Notes under the pieces: generated by a model | Told to the model about the DNA's origin: nothing | The model's input: only the letters and a program-made list of their open reading frames with translations | Databases searched by the model: none | Source: a virus | Reading direction: 5' to 3' (one strand) | Length of the DNA stretch: 45,963 bases | IMG/VR virus record: IMGVR_UViG_3300021168_000009 | Location: 1 to 45,963 of that record | Made by a program: the position numbers and the translations under genes | In this document: piece after piece, positions 1,600 through 45,062 of the stretch | Layout of the letters: each line of letters begins with the position of its first letter | Numbering within the stretch: position 1 is the first letter of the stretch

Positions 1600-2470
1600 A
1601 GAAGATAAGACTGCGCATAGTAAATACTTTAATTTAAATAGGCGTGCTTCAACTGCCTGTTCAGTTAAACATGATAAATATGGTAAGGTAAGTTATGGCC
1701 ATGCACATCAAATGTGCTTTGGCGGTCTAGCTGCTCTTATCACTAAACATTCTGAATATATTATCAATGGTATTCAGTACATGTGGCCGAATTATGAAAG
1801 TAGTTCTAAGGAAAATACTGAGTTCTTTCTTGACTATCTAATGAATGAAAGCCCATTCAAAGATTGTTTCTTTGATAAAGATGTTAAGTGGTCAATTGAA
1901 AACAACTTAACATTCCATAAGATTGATATGCCGGGCAATATGGTAATTGGTTGCCTGTCAGCAGTTAGGGAAATGTGGGAAGAATATAGTTCACAAGGTT
2001 TTAAATATTTTAAGCAGCTGGTTGATGCTGGTTGTACTAAAGATTTTGCATGGTTGATTATACATAATCTTAAGTATGGTGTTGATACAGATTTATGTTT
2101 TAAAAGGCCTAATTATAATGGTGGTCATTCAGCATGGCCAGAAAATAGTGCTAACATTGGTGATGCAATTAATTATATTAATTGTAATATTCCGGGAGTT
2201 CACGAGAATAACTTCTGGTATGGATATCCATACAAGGGTGTATTTCAACTGTTTCTTAATTCTTATGATGTGGTTAAGGGTGATGATAATTTTGCTTATT
2301 GGATTATAAATAATAGTGATAAGAAAGTAAAATCCAATGTCAGAAAAGAGCCTTGGGAGTCTGGTGCAGCAATTGTTTATAACATCACACTACCTGTAAA
2401 TGAAATGATTGAAGAGATGGCCTTGATGTGTGATAAGTTCTACAAGACTTTTAAGGAGTATATTAAATGA
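1586..2470 (+). CDS. unknown protein of the amidoligase cassette, 294 aa
   Basis: A 294-residue soluble protein translationally coupled on both sides (14-nt overlap upstream, 4-nt overlap with the class I amidotransferase downstream). It is rich in aromatic and Asn residues and has conserved-looking His/Cys patches near the N-terminus (GHAHQMCFGG, about residues 38-47), a C-terminal NFWYGYPYKG segment and helical stretches. I cannot assign a family. The tight packing among peptide-bond enzymes suggests it acts on the same substrate, as an enzyme or carrier, but that is inference from context. Confidence 0.75.
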   Translation: MLTREEDKTAHSKYFNLNRRASTACSVKHDKYGKVSYGHAHQMCFGGLAALITKHSEYIINGIQYMWPNYESSSKENTEFFLDYLMNESPFKDCFFDKDVKWSIENNLTFHKIDMPGNMVIGCLSAVREMWEEYSSQGFKYFKQLVDAGCTKDFAWLIIHNLKYGVDTDLCFKRPNYNGGHSAWPENSANIGDAINYINCNIPGVHENNFWYGYPYKGVFQLFLNSYDVVKGDDNFAYWIINNSDKKVKSNVRKEPWESGAAIVYNITLPVNEMIEEMALMCDKFYKTFKEYIK

Positions 2471-3039
2471 AGGTTTATATTGTTGGTGGTGGATCAGACT
2501 TCTCTAAGATGTTCCAGTCCTATGGATGGGAAGTTACTACAGACTTATTTAAGGCAGACCTAGTTCAGTTCACTGGTGGTGCAGATGTAACACCAGAGAT
2601 TTATGGTGAGAAGAATACTGATAGTCATAATGACTTTAATAGAGATTTAAGAGAAGCTGCTATCTTTACCATTGCTAAACGTATTGGTAAGCCGATGGTG
2701 GGTGTATGTCGTGGTGGTCAGTTCCTTAATGTCATGTGTGGTGGGTCAATGATTCAACATGTTGAAGGGCATACTAAAGCACACACCATTACTGCATGGT
2801 ACAAAGGTATTGCTAAAACAGTATTAGTAACTTCGACACATCATCAAATGATGGTTCCAGAACCTGATAATGGTGATGTATTAGCTTACACAGATACTGT
2901 TGGTGATGCTGATACAGAGGTTATCATGTATTGGGAAGATATGGTATTATGCTTCCAACCACACCCAGAGTTTGGTGGACATGAATGTCAAGAGTATTAT
3001 TTTGAATTGATTGAACGTTGTCTAGGACTAAAGGCATAG
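2467..3039 (+). CDS. class I glutamine amidotransferase fold protein, peptidase C26 (PuuD/gamma-glutamyl hydrolase) type
   Basis: 190 residues with the complete catalytic set of the family: nucleophile elbow GVCRGGQ with Cys81, and HPE at 166-168 (His166, Glu168). The HHQMM segment at 125-129 matches the histidine pair of the PuuD/gamma-glutamyl hydrolase branch rather than synthase-linked amidotransferases. Such enzymes hydrolyse gamma-glutamyl bonds, for example in gamma-Glu-GABA or polyglutamates. It is compact compared with cellular PuuD (about 250 aa). Overlapping ATGA with the upstream unknown shows co-translation. Together with the cyclotransferase it gives the cassette two gamma-glutamyl cleaving activities alongside several ligases. 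The exact substrate is unknown. Confidence 0.87.
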   Translation: MKVYIVGGGSDFSKMFQSYGWEVTTDLFKADLVQFTGGADVTPEIYGEKNTDSHNDFNRDLREAAIFTIAKRIGKPMVGVCRGGQFLNVMCGGSMIQHVEGHTKAHTITAWYKGIAKTVLVTSTHHQMMVPEPDNGDVLAYTDTVGDADTEVIMYWEDMVLCFQPHPEFGGHECQEYYFELIERCLGLKA

Positions 3040-3042
3040 ATT

Positions 3043-3459
3043 ATGGCCAGAGTCTCTAATTTTACTGACTGTTGTTCAGGCGCAATTTTCAGCGGGTTTG
3101 GTGGTGGACATGTTGGAGAAACTGAATCATGGTCTAAGCGGGAATTGATTAAATGGTTGTGTGATAAACTTACTAAATGTAAGTTGCGTTATGCAACTGT
3201 AGTTGCCATACCAACTTCATCACAACCTAATGCTATAGCAGCATTAGAAGAGGTTGGATTCTACCAACATCCAGATGGTGTTGATGGTGGTGGGTATAGA
3301 CTTACAAAGTCACATAAGATGTGTGTGATGTTTATGCCACTTTATGAGTGGGATGAAAAGAAATTCCTTGAGTCCTATGATCCAAATAAGGATGATTACA
3401 AGGATAAACCTAATCGTGGTGAAAAATTTACCAAAACTACGGCTGATACCTATTGGTAA
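3043..3459 (+). CDS. unknown protein, weakly GNAT-like, 138 aa
   Basis: The gene starts 3 nt after the preceding stop. The middle holds TVVAIPTSSQPNAIAALEEV followed by GFYQHPDG, which resembles the last strand-helix-strand of GNAT acetyltransferases (an Asn/Ala-rich helix then a Gly-Phe turn). The acetyl-CoA loop is not obvious and the N-terminus is Gly-rich. The tail is highly charged and probably disordered. It may be a diverged or minimal acyltransferase, or an unrelated fold. Its position between the C26-like hydrolase and the class II amidotransferase implies a shared pathway. I would not assign a function. Confidence 0.7.
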   Translation: MARVSNFTDCCSGAIFSGFGGGHVGETESWSKRELIKWLCDKLTKCKLRYATVVAIPTSSQPNAIAALEEVGFYQHPDGVDGGGYRLTKSHKMCVMFMPLYEWDEKKFLESYDPNKDDYKDKPNRGEKFTKTTADTYW

Positions 3460-3513
3460 TGCAATACTGATTTTGTGAATTAACCTCAGAAAATAATTAA
3501 TAGGAAATTAATC

Positions 3514-4995
3514 ATGTGTGGAATTGTTGGCTGTGTGGGTAAAATTTATGCTAAAGAAGAAGAAGTGTTCAAACTTCTATCTAAGCTAGATGTTATTCGT
3601 GGTGAGCATTCAACTGGTGTGTTATCAGTTACCAAGGATATTGGTAGTTGGGAAACACAAAAGATGGTAGGTACGTCATATGATCTTTTTGCAACTAAGG
3701 GTTTCAATGAGATGTTTAAGCGTACACATCTATGCCTATTTGGACACAATCGTCAAGCTACTCGCGGCACAATCACAAATGATAATGCCCATCCATTTGC
3801 CCATGACCATATTGTAGGTTGCCATAATGGCACACTTAATAGTATGTGGAATCTTAAGGACAATAAGAACTTCACTGTTGATAGTGATAATATTTATTAT
3901 GATATGTCACACAATGGTGCTAAGAAAACTCTTGAGAAGCTTAATGGAGCATTTGCTCTATGTTGGTATGATGACAAGGAGCGTACTATTAATCTTGTCA
4001 GAAATGAACAACGTCCTTTGTACTATTGTTACACAAAAGATCATAAGACATTCTTCTGGGCATCTGAGTCATGGATGCTTCATGTAGCAATGTTAAAGAA
4101 TGATCTTGATCGTGATGAGATTCATTTCTTGCCAGAAAGACAACTTCTAACAATTGATGTGCCGGTTGTAGCTGGCAGTCAAGTAGAGAAAATTGAACAT
4201 AGGCAGGAGGGCGTGGAGTTCTACAAAGCTCCCGCGTTTCGGGAAGGTGGTTCATGGGACTCAGACTGGTACTCCACTTCAAGGAACCGCCCATATGCAG
4301 GTTCGACTTACACGACGGGAAAAACGGGAACTGAAGCGTCAAAAGAAACTCCAAAGAAAGTAACAAACATAAATGATAAGAGGAGTTCAGTAACTCTGAA
4401 CACACGATTTCTGGGAAAGACTATCGTCTTTTCTGTGGTCGGAAAAGGTAAAGAAGGTAATTTAGATCACATCAAATGTGAAGTTGAAGATCAGGTTAAT
4501 CCTCCTGAACTACGTGTGTTTACAGACTATAAAGGAAAATTAGGAACACTTCTACTTGATAGTCCTAAGATGTTTAAGGGTAAGGTTAAGGCTGTATCAA
4601 ATTATGGTGCAAGCACTTATCTAGTTTGTGATAATAGAACCATTGAGGAAGTACCATATGAGGAAGCCATTTGGCTAGGCAATTCCAAAAGTGAAGATCA
4701 TGCCCCGCTTAATAAGGATGATGAAGAAGCTATTGTAGAGCAGTCAGTACAAGACTACGCAGATGCAATGAAGAGTGTAAAGTACACTGGCTTTGAAGGT
4801 AAGCTGCTAACACCAGAAGAGTATGCTAGGAATACTGGTGGTGGTTGTGCTTTATGTGGAGATTATCCTTCACTAAGTGGAATGGATAAGATTGTGTGGA
4901 TTAGTAATGTAGAACATTTCTGTGAAAACTGCAGTGAGACACAATTTGCAATTGAATATTTAACCCCAAGCGCAAAGAACATTAACAAGGTGTGA
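3514..4995 (+). CDS. class II glutamine amidotransferase (Ntn hydrolase) with C-terminal zinc motif
   Basis: 493 residues. The product begins Met-Cys-Gly-Ile-Val, so Cys2 becomes the N-terminal nucleophile after Met removal. The domain keeps GHNRQATRG (78-86), HNGTLNS (104-110) and a DSDN segment near 123-126, the usual glutamine-binding elements. The domain releases ammonia from glutamine. The remaining ~270 residues contain no synthase domain I recognise; a Ser/Thr-rich linker (about 240-290) leads to a small beta-rich domain, and the end has two CxxC pairs (CALC, CENC) that should bind zinc. The ammonia acceptor is probably acted on by the neighbouring ligases. AGGA precedes ATG 3514, and the stop is 1 nt from the next gene. 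Close analogues occur in phiEco32-type cassettes. Confidence 0.9.
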   Translation: MCGIVGCVGKIYAKEEEVFKLLSKLDVIRGEHSTGVLSVTKDIGSWETQKMVGTSYDLFATKGFNEMFKRTHLCLFGHNRQATRGTITNDNAHPFAHDHIVGCHNGTLNSMWNLKDNKNFTVDSDNIYYDMSHNGAKKTLEKLNGAFALCWYDDKERTINLVRNEQRPLYYCYTKDHKTFFWASESWMLHVAMLKNDLDRDEIHFLPERQLLTIDVPVVAGSQVEKIEHRQEGVEFYKAPAFREGGSWDSDWYSTSRNRPYAGSTYTTGKTGTEASKETPKKVTNINDKRSSVTLNTRFLGKTIVFSVVGKGKEGNLDHIKCEVEDQVNPPELRVFTDYKGKLGTLLLDSPKMFKGKVKAVSNYGASTYLVCDNRTIEEVPYEEAIWLGNSKSEDHAPLNKDDEEAIVEQSVQDYADAMKSVKYTGFEGKLLTPEEYARNTGGGCALCGDYPSLSGMDKIVWISNVEHFCENCSETQFAIEYLTPSAKNINKV

Positions 4996-4996
4996 T

Positions 4997-5806
4997 ATGA
5001 AAATTCTAGTGGGTGCTGACCCTGAAATCTTTATGTTTAAGGATGGACTACCAGTATCGGCTCATGGTGCCATTCAAGGAACAAAGCATGATCCATTCAA
5101 AGTAAAGGATGGTGCAGTACAAGTAGATGGTATGGCTCTTGAGTTTAACATCGATCCTGCTAGTACAGAGGAAGAGTTTATCCATAATGTTGAATCAGTA
5201 CTAGCAACACTTAAGAGTATGGTTCCGGGATTTGATCTGGTAGCTACACCAGTGGCAGAGTTTGGGTTTGATTACATTAAAGCACAGCCTGAAGATGCAT
5301 TGCTACTTGGTTGCGACCCAGACTTTGATGCATGGAATGATGGTCAGATTAACCCTAGACCTAATGGGGATAATCCATTTAGAACTGGTGCGGGGCATGT
5401 TCATATTGGTTGGACTAGTGATGCCGACGTGATGGACTCATCACATATTAATACCGGCATTACACTTACCAAGCAACTTGATGCATTCCTAGCATTGCCA
5501 TCACTATTCTATGACTCTGCAACTAAGCGTCGTACTATGTATGGTAAGGCTGGTGCATTTAGAACTAAGTCTTATGGTGTTGAATATCGTGTTCTTAGCA
5601 ATGCATGGCTTAAAGACTCGAAGCTTATGGGTTGGGTGTATAAGAATACAATACTTGCCGTAGAGAATTTAATGGGCGGTAATCATGTTTATAAGGAAAT
5701 GGGTGAAGATATTCTTTCAGAAATTACAAACGATAAGCCAAACCTTAAGATGGTTAAGGATTGGTTGGTTGCACATAACATTCCGCTTCCGCCACAGGTG
5801 GCCTAA
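4997..5806 (+). CDS. phage COOH-NH2 ligase, type 2 (glutamine synthetase/GCS-like fold)
   Basis: 269 residues with the hallmark start GADPEIF (6-12), an acidic strand (ALEFN, Glu49), the metal/ATP-binding HVHIGW (134-139) and a GVEYRVLSN strand near the C-terminal third. These are the features of the phiEco32-like COOH-NH2 ligase type 2 family, relatives of gamma-glutamylcysteine ligase. They use ATP to join a carboxylate to an amine through an acyl phosphate. The gene is packed between the class II amidotransferase and a small unknown. It is the first of three ATP-dependent amide-forming enzymes in the cassette. Substrates are unknown; a gamma-carboxylate of Glu is an inference from the gamma-glutamyl cleaving neighbours. 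Confidence 0.9.
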   Translation: MKILVGADPEIFMFKDGLPVSAHGAIQGTKHDPFKVKDGAVQVDGMALEFNIDPASTEEEFIHNVESVLATLKSMVPGFDLVATPVAEFGFDYIKAQPEDALLLGCDPDFDAWNDGQINPRPNGDNPFRTGAGHVHIGWTSDADVMDSSHINTGITLTKQLDAFLALPSLFYDSATKRRTMYGKAGAFRTKSYGVEYRVLSNAWLKDSKLMGWVYKNTILAVENLMGGNHVYKEMGEDILSEITNDKPNLKMVKDWLVAHNIPLPPQVA

Positions 5807-5807
5807 T

Positions 5808-6374
5808 ATGTATGGTAAAGATTTTGGTTATGCTAATACAAGAGTTACTGGAACTGTTGTAAGGCTTATTAAGGGTGGTGAACCAGTTCTTGTAAATACA
5901 ATAACTAATAGTGGGTTATGTTCAGTAACATTGCTAGAGAATATTGAAGCAGGTGATAGTACAACAGTACATTTAGATGATCTTAATTTAGAACCCGTGC
6001 CTTTGGGTTATGTTAATCACAATGGTAAGGCTATTTATCTACAACGTATTCCTGTAAGACGTGGTCCGGGTAATCAAGGATTAAATGCTAATAACTGTAT
6101 ATCCACAGGCGAGAGACTTTGGAGATTTCCAAACAAGGCACTTAGACAGTGTATCATGGGTAAGTATCCAGACTTTAAAACTGCTTTTAAGAGTGCAAAC
6201 GGTATTAATAAGTTTAACTTAGAAAAGTCAATTGCTTTTGATAGGCATTGGGCAGTATCAGAAGAAAGACTTTATTACAAAAATAATCTTTTGGTTGGTA
6301 TAATCAAAGATGGTAAGCCTAGTCTACTACCAGAGTTTAAATACTTGAGAGAGTGTTTAGCGGAGATTGTATGA
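5808..6374 (+). CDS. unknown amidoligase-cassette protein, 188 aa (N-terminal SH3-like)
   Basis: I place the start at ATG 5808, one base after the upstream stop; the open frame back to 5685 only runs inside the ligase gene. The N-terminal ~60 residues (TRVTGTVVRL, EPVLVN, LEPVPLGYVN) look like a small beta barrel. A basic segment with YLQRIPVRRGPGNQGL and a C-terminal helical part follow. I recall similar proteins lying beside phage COOH-NH2 ligases, but no biochemical role is known to me. The stop overlaps the next ATG. It could bind the substrate or a partner enzyme. Confidence 0.75.
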   Translation: MYGKDFGYANTRVTGTVVRLIKGGEPVLVNTITNSGLCSVTLLENIEAGDSTTVHLDDLNLEPVPLGYVNHNGKAIYLQRIPVRRGPGNQGLNANNCISTGERLWRFPNKALRQCIMGKYPDFKTAFKSANGINKFNLEKSIAFDRHWAVSEERLYYKNNLLVGIIKDGKPSLLPEFKYLRECLAEIV

Positions 6375-7252
6375 GTACCGTAGCAAAAGAAATGGGCATT
6401 AAGAAATTGGTTACAGGTGACGTTGGTATTGAGATTGAGGTTGAAGGTACAGGTCTTCCAGTGATGGCTAAATATTGGAACAATGAACAGGACGGTAGTT
6501 TACAAGGGCCAGAATCTAGAGAATACGTACTTAAGCGACCAATGACTCTAGTAGAAGCTAAGAGTGCCTTAGATCATCTTGATAATGAATATAAGCGTTG
6601 GAATACAACAGTTAATGATTCTGTTCGTGCTGGTGTGCATATCCATATTAACTGTCAACATCTGACGATGACACAGCTTTATAACTTCATGACTGTGTAC
6701 CTAATCCTTGAGAATGTTCTTGTTAAGTGGTGTGGTGATTCTAGGTGTGGTAATCTATTCTGCCTTAGGGCATCAGATGCAGAATGGATCTTAACTCAGA
6801 TTAGACATGCAGCAAGTACCAAGAAGTTTATCAATGCATTCCACAGAGACGAGTTAAGATATTCTTCTATGAATGTTAAGGCATTGGGTGATTATGGGTC
6901 TTTAGAGTTTAGATCAATGCGTGGTACTCGTGACCTAGGATTGATTTATATGTGGGCTGAAACACTACTAGGTCTACGTGAATTTGCAAAGAAGTTTAAT
7001 AATCCTGCTGACATCATTGAAGCATTTAGTATTCAAAGTCCTCTTAGGTTTATGAGGAATGCTTTGGGTGATAATTATGATTCATTCAAAACAGATGGAC
7101 AAGAAAAGATGTTATGGACTGGTGTACATAATGCACAAGATATTGCATTCTGTGCAGACTGGTCTAAGTTTGATCCTAAGATGCGTAAGATTGGAGAGCT
7201 TGAATTTCCAGAAGATATGAATGATATTGATGAACCAGAAGATGATTTCTGA
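6371..7252 (+). CDS. amidoligase (Amidoligase_2-like, GCS superfamily)
   Basis: 293 residues from ATG 6371, which has GGAG upstream and overlaps the preceding stop; the upstream in-frame TTG at 6353 is less likely. Core motifs: VGIEIEVEG (18-26), DGSL (41-44), ESREYVL (48-54), GVHIHIN (88-94) and GSLEFRSMRGT (about 185-195), matching the metal- and ATP-binding strands of the Amidoligase_2 family. It is a second, distinct carboxylate-amine ligase in the same operon, so two successive condensations are plausible. The acidic C-terminus (DMNDIDEPEDDF) is probably a flexible tail. The specific reaction is not predictable from sequence alone. Confidence 0.88.
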   Translation: MSTVAKEMGIKKLVTGDVGIEIEVEGTGLPVMAKYWNNEQDGSLQGPESREYVLKRPMTLVEAKSALDHLDNEYKRWNTTVNDSVRAGVHIHINCQHLTMTQLYNFMTVYLILENVLVKWCGDSRCGNLFCLRASDAEWILTQIRHAASTKKFINAFHRDELRYSSMNVKALGDYGSLEFRSMRGTRDLGLIYMWAETLLGLREFAKKFNNPADIIEAFSIQSPLRFMRNALGDNYDSFKTDGQEKMLWTGVHNAQDIAFCADWSKFDPKMRKIGELEFPEDMNDIDEPEDDF

Positions 7253-7293
7253 TAATCCAATGCTGAAAACAACAATTTTATTGAGAAAATATT

Positions 7294-8244
7294 ATGTACT
7301 TACTTCCATATAAAAATGGTAGTCATGGAGCATCTGATTTAGCTAATGCTTTGGGTATCAAACAAATTAAACGTGAAGGTAGTAAATTCAAAGGTAGTAA
7401 GGATAAACTTGTTATCAATTGGGGTAGTACAATTATGAGTGACGAAGTAGCTAAGTGTGAGGTTTTAAATAAGCCAGAGGCGGTAGCTTTAGCTAGTAAT
7501 AAACTACAATTCTTCCAGTGCATTCATCGTTGGAATAGTTCAAGAGAATATCTTGGTAATCAAGTTAAAGTTCCTACTTGGACTACTGAGAAAAGAATAG
7601 CTATGGAATATCTTATCGATGATGGTAAGACTATAGTAGCTCGCACCATTCTCAATGGTCATAGTGGTGCTGGCATTATTCTATGTGAAACTCCCGAGGA
7701 GCTAAACGAAGTCGATGCTCCACTGTATGTTGTATACGTGCCTAAGAAACAAGAATATAGAATTCATATTCTTAATGATAAGGTGGTAGATATTCAACGT
7801 AAGGCACGTAGAACTGATCTTCCAGATGACCAAGTCAATTGGAAGATTCGTAATCACGATAATGGTTTTATCTATAGCCGAAATGAAGTGGCTAAGGATA
7901 TTCCTGAGGATGCATTAAACATTAGCATTAATGCTGTGAATGCGTGTGGGTTAGACTTTGGTGCTGTAGATGTAATCTATAATGAAAATCAAAATAGATC
8001 TTATGTCCTTGAAATTAATACAGCTCCGGGTCTTTCTGGTGAAACTCTTGCTGGTTATACAGCAAGAATGAAAGAAGTGATGGAGGGTTTTAAGACTGGT
8101 AGAGTTAAGTCCCTCAAGAAAACACTTACTTGGGTTGACGAAGTAGATCATTTTCCACCAATCGATGTTATGCCACAAAATATTCCTAATCCACTTTGGG
8201 TAGATTTTCAAGCTAATCAAGAAAGAAGGAATAATCAACAATAA
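7294..8244 (+). CDS. ATP-grasp ligase
   Basis: 316 residues. The C-terminal half has the ATP-grasp landmarks: a Gly-rich loop (LNGHSGAGIIL), EYRIHIL, a basic KARR segment, AVDVIY, and the metal-binding VLEINTAPGLSG. Such enzymes form peptide or amide bonds through acyl phosphates. It resembles the phage ATP-grasp proteins that accompany COOH-NH2 ligases in phiEco32-type cassettes. The N-terminal ~100 residues form the less conserved pre-ATP-grasp part. The gene sits 41 nt after the second amidoligase and 55 nt before the oxygenase-like gene. It may add an amino acid to the product of the other ligases or modify a protein end. Confidence 0.9.
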   Translation: MYLLPYKNGSHGASDLANALGIKQIKREGSKFKGSKDKLVINWGSTIMSDEVAKCEVLNKPEAVALASNKLQFFQCIHRWNSSREYLGNQVKVPTWTTEKRIAMEYLIDDGKTIVARTILNGHSGAGIILCETPEELNEVDAPLYVVYVPKKQEYRIHILNDKVVDIQRKARRTDLPDDQVNWKIRNHDNGFIYSRNEVAKDIPEDALNISINAVNACGLDFGAVDVIYNENQNRSYVLEINTAPGLSGETLAGYTARMKEVMEGFKTGRVKSLKKTLTWVDEVDHFPPIDVMPQNIPNPLWVDFQANQERRNNQQ

Positions 8245-41370: not shown

Positions 41371-41482
41371 AATTACTTATAATCCTTATGCTCTTATATA
41401 CTAAGACCCCAGGAATGAAGGAAAGGTAATGTCTGTAATTTTTATTAGAAATTTCTTAGGTGCATTGCACACTAATCTGACA

Positions 41483-41523
41483 CCCCTAACACCCCCTTTG
41501 ACCCCTAAGCCATTGACCACCCC
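41483..41523 (-). repeat. C-run array; minus strand can form a G-quadruplex
   Basis: Four C runs on the plus strand (41483-41486, 41492-41496, 41502-41505, 41520-41523) give four G runs of at least 4 on the minus strand with loops of 14, 5 and 5 nt. Three also form an ACCCCTA iteron-like repeat. Such a tract is striking in a genome of roughly 40% GC. Confidence 0.65.
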
Positions 41524-41537
41524 TAGTATATACTAGG
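41522..41537. promoter_or_regulatory. perfect 16-bp palindrome
   Basis: CCTAGTATATACTAGG equals its own reverse complement. It is a likely dimer-binding operator within the inverted-repeat bracket. Confidence 0.6.
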
Positions 41538-41548
41538 AACTCCTAGCC

Positions 41549-41805: not shown

Positions 41806-42015
41806 ATGAAGACCATATGCCTATTGCTAGCATTGTTTACCACTTCAGTGTATGCTGAACATACCTCGGCATCCTTCACTGTAGGTATAACCATTGTTGC
41901 TAGTTGCTCTGTGGTTGTATCCAGTGTTAGACTACCTGCCAGTTGTGTGGCTAAGTCATTGCCACCGTTGATAATCACTAACACTAAGAACAAGGTTGTT
42001 ACCATCTATTACTGA
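41806..42015 (+). CDS. small secreted protein resembling a miniature fimbrial/spore-coat-U strand pattern
   Basis: 69 residues. MKTICLLLALFTTSVYA is a clear Sec signal peptide with an AxA-like cleavage before EH. The mature ~50 residues run ASFTVGITIVASC, then PASC, and end NKVVTIYY. That is the first strand, disulfide pair and last strand pattern of SCPU/fimbrial subunits, with the middle cut out. It should be a periplasmic disulfide-bonded protein. The start may instead be ATG 41797; neither has a strong ribosome site. As the first rightward gene it might block pilus assembly or a second phage, which is inference. The signal peptide is the best evidence that it is real. Confidence 0.62.
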   Translation: MKTICLLLALFTTSVYAEHTSASFTVGITIVASCSVVVSSVRLPASCVAKSLPPLIITNTKNKVVTIYY

Positions 42016-42025
42016 GAGAATAGCC

Positions 42026-42106
42026 ATGAGTCCATACATCGTTTACTTCGGTAGCCTATTGATTCTTGCTATCGTTTGTCTGTGTTCAAAGAACGAAGAT
42101 AAATAG
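42026..42106 (+). CDS. 26-aa single-helix membrane peptide
   Basis: ATG 42026 to TAG 42104-42106. The sequence starts MSPYIVYFGSLLILAIVC and ends in charged CSKNEDK, so it should be an N-out or N-in single-span peptide. GAGAA precedes the start. It ends exactly where the structured noncoding region begins. Tiny membrane peptides recur in this early region (42-113, 45830-45913). Function unknown. Confidence 0.5.
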   Translation: MSPYIVYFGSLLILAIVCLCSKNEDK

Positions 42107-42865
42107 TCATACAAGTTATAGTCTGTTCAGCTTAGGTTCAGACTATACCTAGTATGATTTGATCGTCAGTCATGGAATGACCCTGAGACATGCTAGTCCG
42201 CCTAGTTGTATAGCCGACGTCTCATATAGTGCCGTAAGGTGACGATGACAACGTCGGGTTGTCTTTGTTGTAACACTGTCATACTGTTCATGTCTGTAAA
42301 GCATGCTTATGCAGTGCGCAAAAACGTACAAAAACGCTAGAAAATACGTTCAGGCTACGTTCAGGGTAACGAGTGTAGTCTGGACAACATAGCAAACGGG
42401 CTAAATGTTCAGCTACTGGGGACGACAACCGTATGACATAGCAAGTATGTCAGCCAATGGTGGTGATTGGAGTGCTAAAGCCTGACGGCAATGGTTCCGG
42501 TCTAAGCTAACGGCGTCAAAGGAGACTATAAACCCTCAACCATGCCGCTAGGTGAATATAGGGCAGAGTCGCGGTGCAGGCATCGGTGAATGCACCCCCG
42601 TTACTTTCACGGGCAACATGTTCTAAGCTGGCCTGTCTTACAAGCAGGGACTAGCTCGGCACTGGAAAGGATCGCAAGCGAACGTCTTGAGTAATTTAAC
42701 GTTCCCCGATCAAGGTTCAGGCTCAAGGATTCTATTCCTCGACTAACTGAACTAGCCATCATAATGGCGGCAAGCGTTAGCTTGCAAGTATGCCCTGCGA
42801 ATAGAGCACTCGGGCTTCTACCCGCCACGGCTTGACGACTAACTGACATATGCATAGTCAGATTC
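42107..42865 (+). ncRNA. candidate large structured noncoding RNA (~760 nt)
   Basis: No plausible gene occupies this interval. GC is about 49% by hand count (353 of 720 bases, 42121-42840) against roughly 40% elsewhere. Perfect hairpins follow one another: 42117-42125/42139-42147 (9 bp, enclosed by 42107-42112/42152-42157), 42169-42181, 42184-42189/42219-42224, 42247-42252/42258-42263, 42434-42440/42446-42452 (7 bp, GCAAG loop), 42454-42458/42466-42470, 42483-42487/42514-42518, 42573-42578/42591-42596, 42597-42600/42610-42613, 42632-42648, 42755-42768, 42770-42775/42780-42785 (6 bp), 42811-42814/42821-42824 and 42843-42847/42857-42861. CGCAAG caps, A-rich linkers and direct repeats also occur. 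Location near phage tRNAs matches the habitat of GOLLD and ROOL RNAs. Family membership is a hypothesis; both ends are approximate. Confidence 0.68.
42632..42648 (+). other. anticodon-arm-like hairpin inside the structured RNA
   Basis: A 5-bp stem (42632-42636 with 42644-42648, one G-U) closes the 7-nt loop CTTACAA, identical to the anticodon loop of bacterial tRNA-Val(UAC). No D-arm, T-arm or acceptor stem can be drawn around it, so it is not a tRNA gene. It may be a chance match or a mimic. Confidence 0.4.
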
Positions 42866-42902
42866 AGAGCATACTTTCAAGCTAACTCGTTGGAGAACAA
42901 TC

Positions 42903-43100
42903 ATGGATACACGTCCTGTCTTTGTTAAACACAATAAAGCTTTTCAGCGTCAAGCTAAGATCGTGCAGCTTGACAGTATTAAAACACCAGAAGCTAGGAA
43001 AGAACATAAGAACATGTTTACGTTTAGGATTGGCCGGACTAAGGTTAACACTGCCGGCTTCTATGAAAGGTCTGGTAAGCATCCTGTTCGATGTAAGTGA
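42903..43100 (+). CDS. hypothetical basic protein, 65 aa
   Basis: ATG 42903 has GGAG 8 nt upstream (42891-42894). The product is strongly basic and mixed alpha/beta (FVKHNKAFQRQAKIVQLDSI, KEHKNMFTFRIGRTKVNTAG), ending KHPVRCK. It is the first protein gene after the structured RNA and could be an RNA- or nucleoprotein-binding partner, but only charge and position suggest that. The frame in +1 (from 42922) is a shadow without a ribosome site. Confidence 0.68.
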   Translation: MDTRPVFVKHNKAFQRQAKIVQLDSIKTPEARKEHKNMFTFRIGRTKVNTAGFYERSGKHPVRCK

Positions 43101-43162
43101 ATTGGCTATCCAGTAATATGTAAATAATATCTAATCAACACACAACACAAGTGGAGAGTGTC

Positions 43163-44153: not shown

Positions 44154-44330
44154 ATGTCAAACAAAATGGTTGTCCAGTGTGCTTCGTTCAAAGGTAAGCA
44201 AGTGGTTCGTGCACCTATTGAGCATGGTAAGCGTACAGGCAAGACTCACCGTGACCATACAAGTGGTTCATGGGCACGTCGTCCTCAGAATATCCGGGAC
44301 CGTCAAGACCGTTATGATGAGTTGAAGTAA
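44154..44330 (+). CDS. hypothetical highly basic protein, 58 aa
   Basis: ATG 44154 with AAGGG 8 nt upstream; ATG 44148 is the alternative. The product is strongly basic with a Lys/Arg/His core (FKGKQVVRAPIEHGKRTGKT, HRDHTSGSWARRPQNIRDRQ). It is probably disordered or nucleic-acid binding. The frame extends upstream to 44079, but that part has no good start. Function unknown. Confidence 0.62.
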   Translation: MSNKMVVQCASFKGKQVVRAPIEHGKRTGKTHRDHTSGSWARRPQNIRDRQDRYDELK

Positions 44331-44336
44331 TACGTC

Positions 44337-44492
44337 ATGGAATCAACAGAATTGTTCAACCAGTTCAGCAAGCTTGAGCTTAATGATGTCAAGACTGTTG
44401 AACTGGTTAAGTGGCTTAAGAACAGAACTGGTTGGTCAGTTCATATGTCTTACATGGTGGCTTGTCTAATTAAAATTGCTAATAAAAGGTGA
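44337..44492 (+). CDS. hypothetical helical protein, 51 aa
   Basis: ATG 44337 to TGA 44490-44492. It has two predicted helices (ELFNQFSKLELNDVKTVELV, VHMSYMVACLIKIANKR) with a KWLKNRTGW link. The ribosome site is weak (GAAG). It lies 6 nt downstream of the basic protein and 4 nt before the next ATG, in the rhythm of this operon. Function unknown. Confidence 0.52.
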   Translation: MESTELFNQFSKLELNDVKTVELVKWLKNRTGWSVHMSYMVACLIKIANKR

Positions 44493-44496
44493 TGTT

Positions 44497-44736
44497 ATGA
44501 TTACTGCCAGACAAGCCCAGCTTAAGTTCAATGACAAAGACTACGTAGATGCAATGATCGTAGTTAACCAAGCCATTATTGATGCGAGTCCTAACAGCCA
44601 TGAGGTAGGTGTTTCAATATTGACTGGTACTAATAACACACCATTGCAGGTTAAGTATGCATTGGAAAAGGTTGGATTCAATGTAATTCTAAATCATTAC
44701 GACAATGGTTTTAGTAATATCAATGTGAGGTGGTGA
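44497..44736 (+). CDS. hypothetical protein, 79 aa
   Basis: ATG 44497 with AAGGTGAT upstream; the frame open to 44476 is not needed. It is predicted alpha/beta (KFNDKDYVDAMIVVNQAIID, HEVGVSILTG, VKYALEKVGFNVIL), a small compact fold ending INVRW. It precedes the tRNA cluster by 86 nt. Function unknown. Confidence 0.68.
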   Translation: MITARQAQLKFNDKDYVDAMIVVNQAIIDASPNSHEVGVSILTGTNNTPLQVKYALEKVGFNVILNHYDNGFSNINVRW

Positions 44737-44822: not shown

Positions 44823-44899
44823 GCCTCGGTAGCTCAACTGGACAGAGCATCAACCTTCTAAGTTGATTGTTGCAGGTTCAAATCCTGCTCGGGGCACCA
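44823..44899 (+). tRNA. tRNA-Arg (UCU)
   Basis: A 77-nt cloverleaf: 7-bp acceptor (GCCTCGG/TCGGGGC with G-U pairs), D-arm, anticodon stem TCAAC/GTTGA with loop CTTCTAA, T-stem GCAGG/CCTGC, and encoded CCA. Anticodon TCT reads AGA and AGG, which are frequent in this phage's genes but rare in many enteric-type hosts. Confidence 0.93.
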
Positions 44900-44905
44900 A
44901 TCATT

Positions 44906-44982
44906 GCACCTATAGCTCAGTTGGTTAGAGCAGGAGACTCATAATCTCTTGGCCCTAGGTTCGAGTCCTAGTGGGTGCACCA
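44906..44982 (+). tRNA. tRNA-Met (CAU)
   Basis: A 77-nt cloverleaf: acceptor GCACCTA/TGGGTGC, D-stem GCTC/GAGC, anticodon loop CTCATAA (CAT), T-stem CTAGG/CCTAG, discriminator A and CCA. CAU could also serve tRNA-Ile(CAU) if the C is modified by TilS; I cannot decide without identity-element comparison. Seven bases separate it from the Arg tRNA. Confidence 0.88.
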
Positions 44983-44987
44983 AGTAT

Positions 44988-45062
44988 TAGTTAGTCGTCC
45001 AACCGGCAAGACATCAGTCTCCAAAACTGAGGATGTGAGTTCGAGTCTCACCTAACTAGCCA
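44988..45062 (+). tRNA. tRNA-Trp (CCA), with weak D-arm
   Basis: A 75-nt cloverleaf: acceptor TAGTTAG/CTAACTA, anticodon loop CTCCAAA (CCA) on stem TCAGT/ACTGA, T-stem GTGAG/CTCAC, discriminator G and CCA end. The D-stem has only three pairs (GTC/GAC), so structure is slightly degenerate. It reads UGG. Confidence 0.86.

Follow-up and report, generated by a model that had tools for sequence, protein, structure and literature searches.

The early leader of T7-type phages consists of a host-type promoter and a long hairpin with RNase III sites ahead of the first early gene, and the packaging RNA of phi29 is an early-transcribed phage RNA. Among large noncoding phage RNAs, GOLLD measures ~800 nt and has a universally conserved 3' region (PMC12286853). 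For phage ICP1 and the satellite PLE, the most abundant transcript of each is noncoding, an ~800-nt RNA in the former and the IIR transcript in the latter; the two are described as different RNAs, with that of PLE located between inverted repeats (PMC7567579).

Here we analysed a virus record of 45,963 bases (the window), the TerL of which is 77% identical to TerL of Pseudomonas phage PA11 (Zobellviridae). From ~41 kb its structural genes point leftward and from ~42.9 kb its early genes point rightward, and a structured RNA sits in the divergent gap between them. Similarly to GOLLD and ROOL, this is a large phage noncoding RNA that has tRNAs in its wider vicinity and combines conserved with variable parts (PMC12286853). 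It differs from both in its length of ~500 nt, another conserved domain, the immediate-early leader position, the lack of a covariance-model match, and its additional presence in integrative elements that also encode TerS-like proteins. Biologically, the ICP1/PLE pair comes closest, where abundant noncoding RNA likewise stems from a phage and from a satellite; the phage and satellite copies found here are however homologous, a distinction drawn from the published description. The T7-type leader shares the host-type promoter and the subsequent long hairpin before the first early gene, whereas here ~400 nt of conserved, complex RNA separate the two. The phi29 RNA is comparable as an early-transcribed phage RNA, and the element found here also has a terminase-like gene, but the phage families differ, our RNA is several times longer and no homology is expected.

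Borders and promoters of the RNA

The original prediction proposed a ~760-nt structured RNA at 42107-42865, densely filled with hairpins, in a stretch without a credible gene and higher in GC than its surroundings. Indeed, no credible gene is present in 42107-42865, the GC content is 48-49% compared to ~37-41% upstream, and the hairpins are real, with a fold of -253.5 kcal/mol, far below the -227.5 ± 6.0 kcal/mol of shuffled sequences (z -4.3, 0/20 shuffles). The segment 42381-42888 yielded a fold z of -3.56, with 0 of 60 shuffles as low, 42160-42380 folded no better than shuffles (z -0.08), and the RNA ends after a long hairpin with its 3' arm at 42869-42886. The structured RNA is thereby real but shifted in its borders, comprising ~500 nt from ~42386 to ~42888, while the first ~280 nt of the predicted region are promoter DNA. 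Observation and interpretation were, in other words, partly confirmed and partly supported, respectively.

42126-42158, + strand: promoter P1; motif exact in this gap only, spacing read from the sequence
42338-42379, + strand: promoter P2; motif, spacing and A-rich element recur in relatives
42386-42888 (approximate ends), + strand: structured RNA, from fold z and from homology and synteny with the relatives L002 and L018

P1 is composed of an 11-bp direct repeat, TTCAGCTTAGGTTCAG (42126-42141), followed after 11 nt by the -10-like TATGAT (42153-42158). Analogously, P2 combines the A-rich TAGAAAAT (42338-42345), the direct repeat TTCAGGCTACGTTCAG (42349-42364) and the -10-like TGTAGT (42374-42379), with transcription expected to start at ~42385, a position that bears out the claimed placement early in the rightward transcript. 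The exact motif TTCAGN6TTCAG has two copies in the window (at 42126 and 42349), one in L002 and three in L018, all of them in sense orientation within the divergent gap, and is absent from the other loci among the 88 compared, save copies of the same contigs. In L002 and L018 it is followed by TATAGT with 11-nt spacing, and ~11 nt separate the second repeat from the -10-like hexamer in most copies, as read from the sequences. With its 11-bp period, the direct repeat resembles OmpR/PhoB-type activator sites. A consensus scan detected no canonical TTGACA promoter on the + strand of the window region; in L015, L016, L019, L031 and several Pseudomonas phages, a TAGAAAA element precedes a TTGACA promoter, a recurrence of the A-rich stretch ahead of P2.

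Several details of the original prediction are recast by these promoters. The reported 9-bp hairpin at 42118-42150 encloses the direct-repeat motif at 42126-42141, which is repeated at 42349-42364; a stem around it can be drawn by eye in all three relatives, at a place that is also promoter DNA. What had been taken for an A-rich linker at 42320-42345 is the A-rich element ahead of P2, present at the same place in relatives. Of the proposed long-range pairing between 42165-42170 and 42842-42847, the 5' half precedes the P2 start, and relatives lend the pairing no support. Three tRNAs are indeed located downstream (44823-45062), however ~1.9 kb away and with several ORFs in between, so that "beside the tRNAs" was a loose description.

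Additional observations concern the surroundings. A weak terminator-like hairpin between P1 and P2 (42247-42263) could separate both transcripts. A C-rich block, CACCCCTAACACCCCCTTTGACCCC, lies at the divergent junction (41480-41540), with similar blocks in L002, L018, PA11 (42820-42850) and T2S2, and a G-quadruplex could form on the opposite strand. The rrn-type boxA TGYTCTTTRACAAT was noted in the divergent gap of PA11-like phages, in several copies in some (L006 at 43610 and 43896; L008 at 704 and 932; also L019, L031, L055 and L078), and was not seen in the window clade. Phage FBPa8 (L101, 400-760) has a ~320-bp insertion, with an annotated small ORF within, inside the early promoter region of an otherwise intact RNA. 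Elsewhere in the window (2467-8244), a series of genes resembles those for glutamine amidotransferases, amidoligases and ATP-grasp enzymes, and such genes are annotated likewise in PA11 and T2S2.

Covarying helices and the 5' domain

L002 and L018 keep the locus, with leftward tail genes, the RNA, and then rightward genes for a 65-70 aa basic protein and a 200-230 aa protein. The elements of the RNA and the adjacent gene are as follows.

42390-42452, + strand: family 5' domain with H1, AACCGUA and H3, matched by covariance model R3
42537-42666, + strand: covarying core of 130 nt, with hairpins at 42573-42596, 42597-42613 and 42620-42662
42770-42785, + strand: short hairpin GCAAGC-GUUA-GCUUGC, identical in L002 and L018
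42776-42886, + strand: long terminal hairpin (arms 42776-42793 and 42869-42886), a likely RNase III site, ending 16 nt before the ATG
42903-43100, + strand: small basic protein of 65 aa, pI 10.8, PHROG 5722, directly downstream of the RNA

The original prediction named covariation among homologues as its check and a conserved reading frame as its refutation. In the gap-free 130-nt core block, 98.1% of the cells for 36 pairs were paired and 15 of the 36 pairs had changed on both sides; shuffled controls reached 83.3%, none attaining the observed value, and slid controls 29-44%. The 3' block comprises 39 pairs, 95.6% paired, with 11 changed on both sides. These counts derive from three sequences (the window, L002 and L018), a limited sample with many changes per pair. 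No conserved open frame was detected, as L018 has stops in all frames and no frame is common to the three relatives. Chance folding or the remnant of a coding region, to which the comparably good folding of the reverse strand of 42107-42865 and an 82-aa reverse-strand ORF overlapping part of the region might have pointed, is refuted by the covariation with its controls and hardly fits the stop-filled frames of L018.

The helix of the terminal hairpin contributes eight pairs changed on both sides. Its 5' arm overlaps the short hairpin at 42770-42785, the 3' arm of which is also part of the long stem, rendering the two pairings mutually exclusive; an analogous overlap exists in L016, L019, L031, GP100 and KBC54. 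With models R1 (core) and R2 (3' end), the relatives yielded no additional member, which indicates that the 3' half is confined to the window clade. Exact DNA patterns taken from the 3' core matched the two close relatives only. A blastn search of the window region against phages gave no match.

The wider family was instead reached via synteny, then the small ORF, which led to PA11 gp057, and then the AAACGG hairpin. The latter is H1, UAGC-AAACGG-GCUA (42390-42403) in the window, followed by AACCGUA (42427-42433) and directly thereafter H3, UGACAUA-GCAAG-UAUGUCA (42434-42452). H1, AACNGUA and H3, with H3 directly after AACNGUA, are present in 24 of the 24 sequences inspected, and the motif occurs once in the window (0.05 expected). 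The H1 stem AGGC/GCCU is replaced by UAGC/GCUA in the window and AGGG/UCCU in L002, with pairing kept. AACCGUA can pair with the H1 loop (ACGG/CCGU) in a candidate pseudoknot; such pairing is complete in the window and L002, and across the 24 sequences the variable pair forms in 17 and fails in 7.

The input for model R3 comprised six copies from satellites and one from a phage (L031), with the window group and the P. aeruginosa phages excluded. A full-model scan of the window returned 42390-42455 at E 1.6e-6 (next best 0.84), and R3 also finds PA11, O4, GP100, PPAT, L015, L016 and L019. Within the window clade, L002 scored weakly (E 0.026) and L018 was not recovered; both join the family through the homology of their 3' halves to the window. 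Aggregated, the existence of the RNA family is well supported, and we regard it as previously undescribed: in the literature within reach, which excluded most subscription papers, we found no description of it or of the ~5-kb elements below.

Members in phages and in Pseudomonas chromosomes

Related phages likewise have 0.5-1.8 kb without long ORFs at this junction. The order in phages is promoter, RNA, long hairpin and small basic ORF, with ~10-30 nt between promoter and H1 in family members. L015, L016, L019 and L031 have AGGCAAACGGGCCT in common, just after a sigma-70-type promoter. The same arrangement recurs in PA11 (44254-44685), TC6, FBPa8, HHBS10_2, O4, DMTU_1, PPAT, PP21 and GP100, and in the Pseudomonas putida phage C171_PPU_BP, a T7-like Kantovirus. 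The family spans Zobellviridae and at least one Autographiviridae phage, C171_PPU_BP. PHROG 5722 homologues lie directly behind the RNA in other phages, and the small basic proteins have net charges of +11 to +17 and pI values of 10.2-11.2. Between PA11 and O4 both RNA ends are kept and the middle differs.

Further candidates are probable, not proven, members. KBC54, Luke-3 and the Draal phages carry a 3' motif, GAAGUCYCG..GRGCAAAG, together with a comparable promoter and terminal hairpin, and Providencia phage PSTNGR1 has 85 nt in common at 77%; T7-like candidates besides C171_PPU_BP share mainly the 3' motif. The viral pattern matches L094 and L098 look like chance.

A pattern scan of bacterial genomes produced ten exact matches, three of which resemble the RNA, all in Pseudomonas chromosomes. 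By sequence search, 11 of 399 Pseudomonas species were positive, and a class-wide sample of Gammaproteobacteria yielded no genome beyond the seed. The fetched regions display one layout of about 5 kb near tRNA-Val, with the RNA at one end (one region ends inside the element). Where the neighbourhood was readable, genes convergent to the RNA encode a 113-118 aa TerS-like protein, small proteins and a ~485-aa P-loop protein (PHROG 2467, helicase-like) or a 416-aa variant, followed by three small proteins and, at the far end, a 318-aa tyrosine integrase. The RNA stands alone, convergent to the gene block and without a basic-protein ORF.

The 113-aa protein has weak matches to PHROG 8035 (E 0.0045) and to a terminase small subunit family (E 0.0071); the window gene adjacent to TerL is itself a member of PHROG 8035 (E 2.4e-62). 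From gene content together with this weak TerS match, we infer that the elements most probably represent satellites of such phages. L137-L146 (Pseudomonas genomes) show a uniform ~5-kb element near tRNA-Val, with integrase, wHTH, PHROG 2467, TerS-like gene and RNA, and variable cargo between attachment site and RNA, probably an undescribed phage-satellite family. Phage and satellite copies share sequence as well: GAGACUAUAAGCG is common to phage L031 and satellites L127/L143, and GGAUUGUARAC to phages L015/L019 and satellite L120.

Function of the RNA

We lean towards an immediate-early phage RNA that is released by RNase III, acts in trans and is carried by satellites too; its mechanism, i.e. 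the function in trans, the RNase III cut and the partner, is what we infer. Transcription by host RNA polymerase would yield the RNA ahead of all other early-operon products, and an RNase III cut in the long terminal hairpin would detach it from the mRNA that encodes the PHROG 5722 basic protein. A comparable long stem, of differing sequence and ending 15-25 nt before the ATG, is found in 14 of 17 phages, and such a hairpin before the Shine-Dalgarno sequence looks like an RNase III site separating RNA and mRNA. Once free, the RNA may act in trans on a factor of phage or host origin that is required early, either as RNP scaffold or as decoy, with the strongly basic PHROG 5722 protein as first candidate partner. 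The satellites would have an autonomous copy of the RNA, lacking the basic-protein gene, with which they exploit or divert that factor. Being convergent and lacking that ORF, the element RNA need not lead the basic-protein mRNA, and the presence of a stand-alone copy argues for action in trans. The related middle modules of phage and satellite copies would fit a specificity contest with that factor, as shared modules are expected if specificity against a partner matters.

The presence in cultured phages as well as satellite-like elements suggests that the RNA is probably a tool used by phages and by elements seemingly parasitising them. More tentatively, and with distinctly less confidence, phage-satellite parasitism may use the RNA as a recognised ticket or decoy. 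It would be made by lytic podoviruses of two families for an essential early step, and the minimal ~5-kb satellites would keep a type-matched copy among their few core parts to divert that step.

In phages, the RNA could also act in cis. As a leader it would control the early operon within the transcript, by antitermination or by a translation switch based on the alternative pairing beside the Shine-Dalgarno sequence of the small ORF. Congruent with this, in every phage examined the RNA comes after the early promoter and ahead of the first early genes, hairpins that exclude one another adjoin the ribosome binding site in L016, L019, L031, GP100 and the window clade, and no U-tailed terminator is present at the RNA's end in the window. 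The Pseudomonas elements, with no early ORF behind their convergent RNA, speak against it, and we consider the cis-acting leader a rather unlikely alternative. Somewhat less probable still is a packaging or replication RNA, either a motor RNA similar to the phi29 pRNA or a primer/origin RNA similar to ColE1 RNA II, that satellites need for packaging or copying by the helper. The elements do combine the RNA with TerS-like and helicase-like proteins, but an early promoter is not specific for packaging, and we know of motor RNAs only in phi29-like phages.

Of the two identities offered by the original prediction, a divergent GOLLD/ROOL member or a new large phage RNA, the second is supported, given covarying helices, a conserved position, no frame and homologues in phages of two families. 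Membership of GOLLD/ROOL, the RNA cages, is very improbable. The size class, tRNAs within 2 kb and the partly conserved, partly variable RNA fit; the length of ~500 nt and the location of the conserved domain at the 5' end, compared to the 3' conserved region of GOLLD (PMC12286853), do not. Furthermore, cmscan against Rfam on 41900-43150 and on the PA11 homologue, with gathering cut-offs and also at E<=10 with permissive filters, matched neither family in the window or the PA11 copies, and the conserved 5' anatomy was found independently of both. Weak Rfam matches to mir-5595 (located on the reverse strand at the terminal hairpin), mir-4003 and Tombus_3_III were far below gathering scores, and group I/II introns, RNase P and tmRNA had no Rfam match.

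What large phage RNAs do has long been debated as an open question, and the known families are hard to test. The present family is compact, occurs in cultured phages of workable hosts (PA11, O4, K4, GP100 and C171_PPU_BP) and again in small integrative elements, and comes with an obvious protein candidate for a partner. It would also add an RNA to the phage-satellite conflict in Pseudomonas. If the ticket or decoy reading holds true, it would represent a new class of functional phage RNA and, to our knowledge, the first homologous RNA common to helper and satellite.
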